From Pyrinomonadaceae bacterium (GTDB lineage Bacteria > Acidobacteriota > Blastocatellia > Pyrinomonadales > Pyrinomonadaceae): a stretch of DNA of 64,000 nucleotides. Positions 36,765 through 39,669 of this stretch are shown here, one piece after another. The notes under the pieces are model-generated. The model was not told the DNA's origin and did not search any database. It saw only the letters and a program-made list of their open reading frames with translations. The stretch spans positions 1-64,000 of the forward strand of contig JANWYH010000006.1 in NCBI GenBank assembly GCA_025054715.1, given 5' to 3'. Within the stretch, counting starts at the first letter, position 1. Each line of letters starts with the position of its first letter. A program made the position numbers and the translations under genes.

Positions 36765-38486
36765 TTACCAACGAACAGGCTTTAGTGTTGGTCCTACGAC
36801 GTGAACCCCAGAAATAACTTCACCTCTGTTATTTCTTACGCTTGTATCGTCAACCCGATACTGATGAGCGCTATACCAAACAACTATATCCTGTCCATCA
36901 AGTGATTCACCACTTACCCAAGGAGCGAGATTAGCTGCAGCACTTGTGTTAGGATCATCTAGCTCACCTGGATTATCCGGTGTTCCTTGAAATCTCAATA
37001 ACCAGAAGTCTCCAGCTCCAAAGGTATCAACCAGATTTCCGAATGCATCAGTTACACTTCCATCATTCATTCCTGGTGTGATTATATAAGCTTCATCACC
37101 ATTTGCATTCTGAATCAAGAAACTACGGTTAAACTGATAATCCCGAAAGATAGCTGCTTCAGTCAGGATTTGTCTTATAAATTTTCTTCCTCGCTCAACC
37201 TGATAAATCTTGTTATTAGGCTGAACAATGTCGAAGTCAAAGCGCCAGTAAACATGATGAGTTCTAGGATTACACACGCAGGAGTTAGCAGTAGAAGCAA
37301 ATCCATATCGAGGACGAATCGTGCCATCAGGAGCAAATCTCCATTCCATTATGTAACGATACCAGCCTGCATTCATCTCGGTAACCAGGACAACCTCTTC
37401 CCCGAACCCAACGTCTTGGCGATAGATCGCCACTCCTTGAAAGTTTCCTGTGTCATTTCTAGTTTCGATGGCCGTGGTTGCAACCGTCCCAGGAGGAAGG
37501 ATTGCTATACCACCGTTTACACCATTTGGAAAGGTAACCCCGGAACTTGGTATCTGAAAAAATCCTTCAGCATACTGCCAATCTCGATAAGGGCCGCAAG
37601 TATTGTTTACATACTGCACAGTCAATATAGGAGCATGCCCACGCTTTAAGACGGACTTACCCTTGTACTTAACATCCCTAATCTCTAGACCTGAACGTTC
37701 GCTAGGTCTTCCCGAAGAAGCCGAAGGTCTAATAACGAGCATTTCCCAAAGAGGCATACCGCCTTGAGTAACAGTAAGCTGATACTGTCCCGGAATTCCC
37801 GCTCCTGTAGCACCTTGCCCAGAATTAGGTATCCCGCAGGACTCCGGTCCTGCTTTTGATGTAGGAGGAGCTTTTTCTGCATAGCGTATAACTTTTTCAT
37901 TCTTAAAGCTTACGCTTACTATTTCTTGAGAACCGGTCTTACTGTATTGCAACCCTACATTCACTAGTCTTTCACCATTTATGTAAGTCGTAGGTGGCAT
38001 TGGTTCAAAGAATTCAATTTCATTTCTGTTAAAAGAGTCCGCAAAATCAGGTGATTTGCTAACAATTTCATAAGCAGCCGAAAGTTCTTCGTAACCTACA
38101 CCCGGATCAAAAATCTCACGTCTTACGGAAACGTTTCTATCCGTTTTTATGTCACTTTCGACTATAATGCACTCATCATTTGTGTAGTCGTAAATAGTTA
38201 ATCTAAAGCGTGTAGGTGGCTTGCTAGGCTGTGATTTATCCACGACAGAGCTATCATCGATCAACTCAGTCGCAACGATACGATACTTAATTCCCTCAAG
38301 CTCCCGTCGAACCGCTGCATCCTGCAAAACTCTTTGACGTGCCAGATCTAATTCAGCCTGTGTCGGTCCCCATGGAACGACTTTTATTTCTAGCTCTGCC
38401 CGCTTCCTACGAGTGTTTTTCGCTTCTTCTGAAGCGAAAACTGAAAAAGAAAGCACTAAAGAAAGAAAAACAGCAAGCTTTTTCAT
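36765..38486 (-). CDS. Exported copper-amine-oxidase-like protein with altered cofactor site
   Basis: 573 aa. Signal peptide MKKLAVFLSLVLSFSVFAS. The C-terminal half follows the copper amine oxidase catalytic domain: HAPILTVQYVNNTCGPYRD, IETRNDTGNFQGVAIYRQD, YIMEWRFAPDGTIRPRYGF, the strand THHVYWRFDFDI and the closing DIVVWYSAHQYRVDD...GPTLKPVRW (family: DIVVWY..HH....LKP). In real enzymes the topaquinone tyrosine lies in N-Y-D/E-Y; here the equivalent is W-Y-R-Y (W375-R377), so Tyr376 is kept but both flanks differ. The copper ligands would be H410/H411 and H541, with shortened spacing. The catalytic Asp motif (DxG) is not obvious. It may be a non-enzymatic relative or use a different chemistry. 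A terminator follows. Confidence 0.65.
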   Translation of the reverse strand: MKKLAVFLSLVLSFSVFASEEAKNTRRKRAELEIKVVPWGPTQAELDLARQRVLQDAAVRRELEGIKYRIVATELIDDSSVVDKSQPSKPPTRFRLTIYDYTNDECIIVESDIKTDRNVSVRREIFDPGVGYEELSAAYEIVSKSPDFADSFNRNEIEFFEPMPPTTYINGERLVNVGLQYSKTGSQEIVSVSFKNEKVIRYAEKAPPTSKAGPESCGIPNSGQGATGAGIPGQYQLTVTQGGMPLWEMLVIRPSASSGRPSERSGLEIRDVKYKGKSVLKRGHAPILTVQYVNNTCGPYRDWQYAEGFFQIPSSGVTFPNGVNGGIAILPPGTVATTAIETRNDTGNFQGVAIYRQDVGFGEEVVLVTEMNAGWYRYIMEWRFAPDGTIRPRYGFASTANSCVCNPRTHHVYWRFDFDIVQPNNKIYQVERGRKFIRQILTEAAIFRDYQFNRSFLIQNANGDEAYIITPGMNDGSVTDAFGNLVDTFGAGDFWLLRFQGTPDNPGELDDPNTSAAANLAPWVSGESLDGQDIVVWYSAHQYRVDDTSVRNNRGEVISGVHVVGPTLKPVRW

Positions 38487-38501: not shown

Positions 38502-39284
38502 CTATCGGCCTTTGAACACAGGTTTTCTTTTTTCAAGAAACGCCTTTACGCCTTCTTCCTTATCTTCGGTTGAAAAGCATATTGAAAACAGATCAATTTC
38601 TCGACGCAAGCCCTCATCAAGATTCGAGCGAGATGCAATTTTAACAGCTTCTTTTGCCATCTGCAAGGCTATGGGTGGTTTTTCAGCGATTCTTGAGGCT
38701 AGCTCTAAAGTTTTTTCTCGGAGCTGGTCGTGAGGAAAAACATGATTGACAAGTCCAATTGAAAGAGCGGTTTCAGCATCAATCATTTCTCCCGTCAAAA
38801 TTAGCTCCATTGCTTTGCCTTCACCAACAAGCCTAGTAAGCCGCTGAGTTCCGCCGCCACCAGGAATGATGCCAAGATTTATCTCAGGCTGACCCAGTCT
38901 CGCTCTATCACTCGCTATACGTATGTCACATGAAAGCGCAACCTCACAACCTCCACCAAGGCAATAACCGTTTATCATTGCAATAACAGGCTTAGGAAAG
39001 CTATCAATCGAGTTAAATAGGGTTCTTTCCTGAAAAATTTTACGCTGCTCAACTGTTGTTTTACCTGCAAATTCGGATACATCAGCCCCAGCTATAAAAG
39101 CTTTATCGCCTGCTCCGGTAATCACCAGAACCCTTGTCGAATCATCGCGTTTTAGCTCGTCTAGCGCTGCAATTCCTTCAACATGAACCCTATAATTGAG
39201 AGCATTTAACTTATCCGGACGATTTACGGTTAAAATCGCAATTTTGTCCAACTTTTCAATCAAAATAGTCTCGTAACCACTCAT
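38502..39284 (-). CDS. Enoyl-CoA hydratase/isomerase (crotonase family)
   Basis: 260 aa. Crotonase fold with VNRPDKLNALNYRVHVEGIA at the start, the oxyanion-hole AFIAGADVSEFAGK, the second catalytic segment MINGYCLGGGCEVALSCDIR-IASDRARLGQPEINLGIIPGG-GGTQRLTRLVGEGKAMELIL. The two catalytic acids of hydratases correspond to the Glu of GQPEINLG and the Glu of EGKA region; both are present. The ATG at 39284 has GAGGTC upstream; the longer frame overlaps the PilZ gene. It could hydrate crotonyl-CoA-type intermediates of fatty acid degradation; the exact substrate is not readable. Ten bases after the PilZ stop. Confidence 0.9.
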   Translation of the reverse strand: MSGYETILIEKLDKIAILTVNRPDKLNALNYRVHVEGIAALDELKRDDSTRVLVITGAGDKAFIAGADVSEFAGKTTVEQRKIFQERTLFNSIDSFPKPVIAMINGYCLGGGCEVALSCDIRIASDRARLGQPEINLGIIPGGGGTQRLTRLVGEGKAMELILTGEMIDAETALSIGLVNHVFPHDQLREKTLELASRIAEKPPIALQMAKEAVKIASRSNLDEGLRREIDLFSICFSTEDKEEGVKAFLEKRKPVFKGR

Positions 39285-39294
39285 TTCGACCTCT

Positions 39295-39669
39295 TTAATC
39301 CTGTTCTGAAGTTTGCTCTTCTGCAACCCAAGATACAAAAAGTCTTAACCAATTCTCTTTTGGCTCTAAAATAGCAACACCTACTCTGATTGTGCCATAG
39401 CTCGATGGAGCTGTCCGAACCACACGTGCTCTTACCTCGACTGGAACGCCATCAGGCCTATGCGAACGTATGTAAAGCACTTCTTCTACTTCAACCTTTT
39501 GGTTCAAATGAAACAACACACCATTAGTCGAAATATCATCGGTTTCAGTTGGTTCACTCCAAGCAGAGCCATCATCAGAACGTCCTGAAACAACTATTGG
39601 AAGGCGTAATGCCATGCGAAGAGCAAAGCGCCTCTCTTCAAAATGTGGTTGAGAATTTGTTACCATCAT
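39295..39669 (-). CDS. PilZ-domain protein (copy 2)
   Basis: 124 aa. RRFALRMALRLPIVVSG carries the RxxxR arm and DDISTNGVLFHL the D-x-S-x-x-G motif, with later barrel strands YIRSHRPDGVPVEVRARVVR and IRVGVAILEPKENW. The motifs are intact, so c-di-GMP binding is expected. The frame begins with TTG at 39693; the double ATG at 39669/39666 is a better start. Divergent from trxB by about 108 bases. It is upstream of a crotonase gene, an uninformative neighbour. Different from copy 1 in length and in the loop after the second motif. Confidence 0.83.
   Translation of the reverse strand: MMVTNSQPHFEERRFALRMALRLPIVVSGRSDDGSAWSEPTETDDISTNGVLFHLNQKVEVEEVLYIRSHRPDGVPVEVRARVVRTAPSSYGTIRVGVAILEPKENWLRLFVSWVAEEQTSEQD

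Follow-up and report, generated by a model that had tools for sequence, protein, structure and literature searches.

The window, a 64,000-nucleotide stretch from a Pyrinomonadaceae bacterium, carries on its reverse strand a copper amine oxidase (CuAO)-like gene with an intact open reading frame, an ATG start and no internal stop (Table 1). The gene is present as a single copy in the 2.45 Mb genome of this soil bacterium, and a six-frame search of the genome with the Cu_amine_oxid family model found no second CuAO, although fragments of the gene itself scored below the family cut-off in that search. Its product, hereafter the window protein, begins with a probable Sec signal peptide (MKKLAVFLSLVLSFSVFAS), and leader-like N-termini are present in relatives from the same class, Blastocatellia, while missing in many other members of the family described below. 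Judging from the sequence, export of the window protein is likely.

Upstream lie an enoyl-CoA hydratase gene and a PilZ gene, the first of which is probably in the same operon as the CuAO-like gene. As the crotonase and PilZ genes are conserved at this position in the closest relative (L001) only, we rejected a functional operon partner here. Ribonucleotide reductase, S13 peptidase and Hsp33 genes are found as neighbours in other Blastocatellia and recur in some, but ribonucleotide reductase and the peptidase are housekeeping genes and were likewise rejected as functional partners.

Table 1. Features of the CuAO-like gene and its upstream neighbour, in window coordinates.
Feature	Coordinates	Strand	Basis
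CuAO-like gene, 573 aa, W-Y-R-Y / Arg-Arg variant	36765..38486	-	ORF; PF01179, 32.2 bits; fold Z 26.6 to CuAO 1avk
Probable Sec signal peptide, residues 1-19	38430..38486	-	Read by eye from sequence
N-terminal D2/D3-like domains, residues 32-201	37884..38393	-	hhalign to canonical CuAOs spans region; structural match from residue 38
CuAO catalytic (D4) domain, residues 243-573	36768..37760	-	Pfam, hhalign, Foldseek, structural alignment
Tyr292, equivalent of strictly conserved CuAO Tyr (HPAO-1 Tyr305)	37611..37613	-	hhalign to canonical V-P-Y; invariant in 86/86
D302..E307, catalytic-base Asp region; Asp position itself is Ala306	37566..37583	-	hhalign
W375-Y376-R377-Y378, replacing N-Y-D/E-Y	37353..37364	-	hhalign and family alignments
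C403-V-C405, Cys pair just ahead of His motif	37272..37280	-	C405 invariant in full-length set
R408-T-H410-H411, Arg in place of first Cu-ligand His, second His retained	37254..37265	-	Alignments; codons AGA ACT CAT CAT
H541-Q-Y-R544, Arg in place of third Cu-ligand His (AGAO His592)	36855..36866	-	Alignments; codons CAT CAG TAT CGG
Enoyl-CoA hydratase gene	38502..39338	-	15 bp upstream of CuAO-like gene; order kept only in L001

Fold and active-site register

The preliminary description, made from the sequence alone, had assigned a CuAO-type catalytic domain to the C-terminal half of the protein, and both profile and structure bear this out. The window protein scores 32.2 bits against Pfam Cu_amine_oxid (PF01179), above the cut-off of 27, while a single-sequence search of PDB structures returned chance matches only, so the relationship to CuAOs is real but distant. 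An AlphaFold2 model built with 47 family sequences reached a mean pLDDT of 85.7 and a pTM of 0.87. When this model was compared with the PDB using Foldseek, the top matches were all CuAOs (best E 1.3e-21), and VIA-align placed model residues 38-573 on residues 12-616 of the Arthrobacter AGAO chain (1avk) with a Z of 26.6 over 424 aligned residues. Since the match takes in both the N-terminal domains and the catalytic domain, we consider the question of fold settled: as modelled, the protein has the complete CuAO fold, N-terminal domains included, as seen in E. coli TynA/ECAO, AGAO and Hansenula HPAO-1, at 13-20% identity in structural alignment. The DGTI motif and the DIVVWY...LKP ending are sited where the preliminary description had put them.

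To place the active site we aligned the family to which the window protein belongs with ten canonical Acidobacteriota CuAOs using hhalign (probability 99.3, E 1.3e-20, 452 columns). Tyr376 falls on the Tyr that becomes topaquinone (TPQ) in the canonical G-N-Y-E-Y (Tyr412 in the canonical protein L085), R408 and H410 fall on the two His of the HxH motif, and R544 falls on the distal His. An independent profile search against PDB chains aligned the family's W-Y-A-A-H-F-x-H strand with AGAO V-V-W-H-T-F-G-L-T-H-F-P-R, which makes the second His of the strand (position 544) the ligand position. The family's third His thus falls on the AGAO T-H-F-P-R His (His592), and PDB titles link AGAO His433 and His592 to copper binding.

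With this register the precursor Tyr is present, but the window protein reads A-G-W-Y-R-Y in place of the TPQ consensus T-x-x-N-Y-D/E, with Trp375 and Arg377 flanking the Tyr as the preliminary description had proposed. Its spacing from Tyr to His motif of about 34 was also correct (34 from Y376 to H410, versus 54-56 from Tyr412 to HxH in L085, or a stretch approximately 22 residues shorter). A misplaced TPQ motif was considered but can be rejected, since the protein has no N-Y-D/E elsewhere and the register is backed by hhalign, the PDB profile alignment and the fold. All 47 aligned full-length members have W-Y-R-Y, and none of the 86 aligned sequences lacks Tyr376, not even the short distant members that read I-G-x-Y, which is conservation far beyond chance.

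Besides the TPQ-position Tyr, the window protein shares with CuAOs Tyr292, the second His of HxH (H410) and the C-terminal D-I-V-V-W strand. It differs from them in the Trp and Arg flanking the Tyr, in having Arg as copper ligands 1 and 3, and in having no catalytic-base Asp at the aligned position, where the family alignment shows an invariant D302 and a nearly invariant E307 beside a variable position 306. The HxH-like strand of the preliminary description was rightly located, but it actually reads R408-T-H410-H411. Where that description had proposed to check for three His around a metal, the alignment gives R408, H410 and R544, a His-to-Arg swap at two of three positions that it had not seen. 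Two other His are of note. His411 (37254-37256) is invariant throughout the family, members with a broken copper triad included. His541 (36864-36866) is nearly so among full-length members, and in these columns the canonical CuAOs carry Phe/Tyr and Gly, respectively (hhalign).

The W-Y-R-Y family and its Arg-Arg clade

A scan of one genome per species identified 109 relatives (80 loci retained) in Acidobacteriota, Bacillota, Actinomycetota, Bacteroidota, Pseudomonadota, Nitrospira and others; phages gave no match. The family is sparse, occurring in 36 of 162 genomes of the window's class (with a few of the matches weak and in possibly canonical CuAO open reading frames), 4 of 261 of a Bacillus-group order and 1 of 296 of a Flavobacterium order. 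Members match no named family except Pfam Cu_amine_oxid, and that weakly, score far below the NCBI primary-amine-oxidase cut-off, and in the case of a Variovorax member (WP_162487223.1) are annotated as "hypothetical protein". No paper on the family was found in the literature searched, which is not proof that none exists. By sequence, then, W-Y-R-Y defines a sparse and otherwise unnamed bacterial family and is not a local oddity; what had been described as a single odd protein belongs to a whole family, within which it is part of a derived sub-clade. Plant CuAO zeta / clade I proteins are also reported to lack the T/S-X-X-N-Y-D motif (PMC12058724), but they form a separate plant lineage, and the available text of that source does not report copper-ligand loss.

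Among 70 W-Y-R-Y sequences, 57 have H408/H410/H544 and nine, including the window protein, have R408/R544; one (L002) has H408/R544, and three are truncated or frameshifted. Every complete member outside the Arg-Arg clade (57/57) keeps His at 408, 410 and 544, and counting each position separately outside the clade, His is found at 408 in 60/60 and at 544 in 57/58. The ten Arg544 sequences form one clade with support of 100/99, or 100/98 when the swapped columns are masked, and in the tree this clade of at least ten genomes lies within the three-His Blastocatellia. Canonical CuAOs have the same three His, which gives the direction of change as His to Arg. A few bases separate the codon for 408 in L002 from a 20-N assembly gap.

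Positions 408 and 544 stand out among the few family-conserved positions that the clade has lost. Gln542 was fixed together with the Arg swap, and Q542, R544 and D547 are clade-specific fixed polar changes, while W375, Y376, R377, Y292, D302, E307, H410, H411 and H541 are all invariant in the clade. Close Arg-Arg pairs have dN/dS values of 0.055 and 0.044. Between the window protein and L001 synonymous sites are saturated, yet the catalytic domain has a pN of 0.10; identity is 85% in this domain and 59% in the N-terminal part. The Arg-Arg clade is under purifying selection, and the gene is not decaying. A neighbourhood scan found no copper-oxidase partner near the genes of the clade.

Possible functions of the Arg-Arg proteins

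TPQ formation is a self-processing reaction dependent on O2 and on copper, which three strictly conserved His coordinate (PMC3382800). Less weight falls on the flanking residues: HPAO-1 N404A still makes 5-10% TPQ, and in E406Q TPQ formation is approximately tenfold slower (PMC3382800). W-Y-R-Y alone would thus be no proof of TPQ loss. R408 and R544, on the other hand, make copper at the canonical site very unlikely in the window protein.

Of the functions offered in the preliminary description, a pseudo-enzyme fits the window protein best given that two of its three ligands are Arg, while a copper-binding structural protein or an oxidase with a different cofactor fits it poorly, though both are live for the three-His relatives, where all ligands and the Tyr are kept. 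We consider it fairly probable that the window protein is a secondarily copper-free and TPQ-free pseudo-amine-oxidase with a binding function outside the cytoplasm. In the Blastocatellia sub-clade, ligands 1 and 3 would have become Arg408 and Arg544 along with Gln542, leaving only His410; without copper the protein would be unable to form TPQ at Tyr376 and hence would be no amine oxidase. Where the metal was once held there is now probably a remodelled, charged Arg/Arg/His pocket, a geometry suggested by the alignment and strand order, and the protein would then act by binding an anionic small molecule (or carboxylate) or a partner, with the anionic ligand being speculative. From its sequence the window protein most likely has no metal and no oxidase activity and is exported, and it is probably a binding or structural protein, a former enzyme still conserved. 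Counting against this reading, the active site in the Arg-Arg clade is better conserved than a solely structural role would require, a metal could be bound at a shifted site made up of H410, H411 and H541, and L002 combines H408 with R544, albeit beside its assembly gap.

There is some chance, if a low one, that the W-Y-R-Y family as a whole is an unrecognised class on the CuAO fold, in which three-His members would use copper for chemistry alongside a Trp/Arg-flanked Tyr that is either unmodified or modified in another way, and the Arg-Arg clade would have a metal-free or metal-relocated site with a new activity. A metal-independent enzyme, in which the remodelled Arg/Arg/His pocket and D302/E307 would together carry out some other reaction, is improbable; it would account for the catalytic domain being so much better conserved than the N-terminal part and for the fixed polar changes Q542, R544 and D547, but no genomic partner or substrate clue is at hand, the neighbours being unrelated housekeeping genes. 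Rather improbable too is a relocated site, where a metal would be bound by H410, H411 and H541, perhaps helped by Cys or acidic residues close by, in a metalloenzyme with an unmodified Tyr376. These His are invariant in the Arg-Arg clade, and H411 and H541 are specific to the family. However, strand geometry suggests that H410 and H411 should point to opposite faces of their strand, which makes a shared site less than obvious, and the three-His members conserve H411 and H541 too, so these two were not recruited to replace lost ligands.

An active amine oxidase with a non-consensus TPQ at Tyr376, for which the flanking N and D/E would be dispensable, is very unlikely in the window protein. The invariance of Tyr376 and Tyr292 and the residual TPQ formation in the two HPAO-1 mutants are in its favour, and it is plausible for the three-His members, but here Arg stands at two of three copper-ligand positions, and in place of the catalytic-base Asp there is an Ala (Ala306), at a position that varies in the family. 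Lastly, a decaying gene without function, as the loss of cofactor motif and ligands might suggest, can practically be dismissed, contradicted as it is by the selection data (dN/dS 0.04-0.06 in close Arg-Arg pairs; the low catalytic-domain pN at saturated synonymous change), the intact open reading frame and its retention across the clade.

Relatives with three His and distant members

The three-His members share approximately 30-55% full-length identity with the window protein and have in common with it W-Y-R-Y, Y292, D302, E307, H410, H411 and usually H541; unlike it, they keep H408 and H544 and thus the whole copper triad. With three His ligands and the Tyr retained in their sequences, they probably bind copper, and their Tyr may be turned into a quinone or serve some other purpose. 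CuAOs serve as the model for quinone cofactors that proteins make themselves, and a natural family with the Tyr and copper triad but without the flanking N and D/E tests whether the consensus is needed for TPQ. The series from canonical enzyme to consensus-less three-His protein to Arg-Arg protein bears on how metalloenzyme pockets get lost or reused. Database scans will go on labelling W-Y-R-Y proteins "Cu amine oxidase" by fold alone.

Many three-His members outside Blastocatellia seem to be without a signal peptide, and a few adjoin galactose-oxidase-like, tyrosinase or lysyl-oxidase genes. In Variovorax sp. WDL1 (L139:3727-11785) a tyrosinase/FG-GAP protein, the three-His W-Y-R-Y protein and a galactose-oxidase-like protein adjoin one another, which brings three different copper oxidase folds together, and the same cluster is found on a second plasmid (L140). 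In Flavobacterium enshiense (L021:5956-11507) the three-His gene is immediately followed by a gene for a large protein with a galactose-oxidase-like domain, in the same order as in Variovorax, and in an Acidobacteriota MAG (L016:4358-7602) a lysyl-oxidase-domain gene lies shortly upstream. Copper-enzyme neighbours in these three lineages fit a copper role for three-His members, but as a sign of such a role they are only suggestive. A general copper-enzyme neighbourhood was rejected, being absent from the scanned neighbours of approximately ten other lineages.

More distant relatives occur in Streptomyces, Nocardia and Nitrospira (L066-L080, e.g. L069:5911-6840 and L075:5827-6852); they keep HxHH and HxxH, with the TPQ position mostly reading I-G-x-Y, and several are short and without the N-terminal domains. 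Members from Xanthomonadales/Dokdonella (L057-L064), often in tandem pairs, keep HxHH and W-Y but no longer have the distal His (VRDA-type strand); here a copper ligand has been lost a second time, separately. Brevibacillus dissolubilis (L025:4031-7674) carries two three-His W-Y-R-Y genes in tandem.
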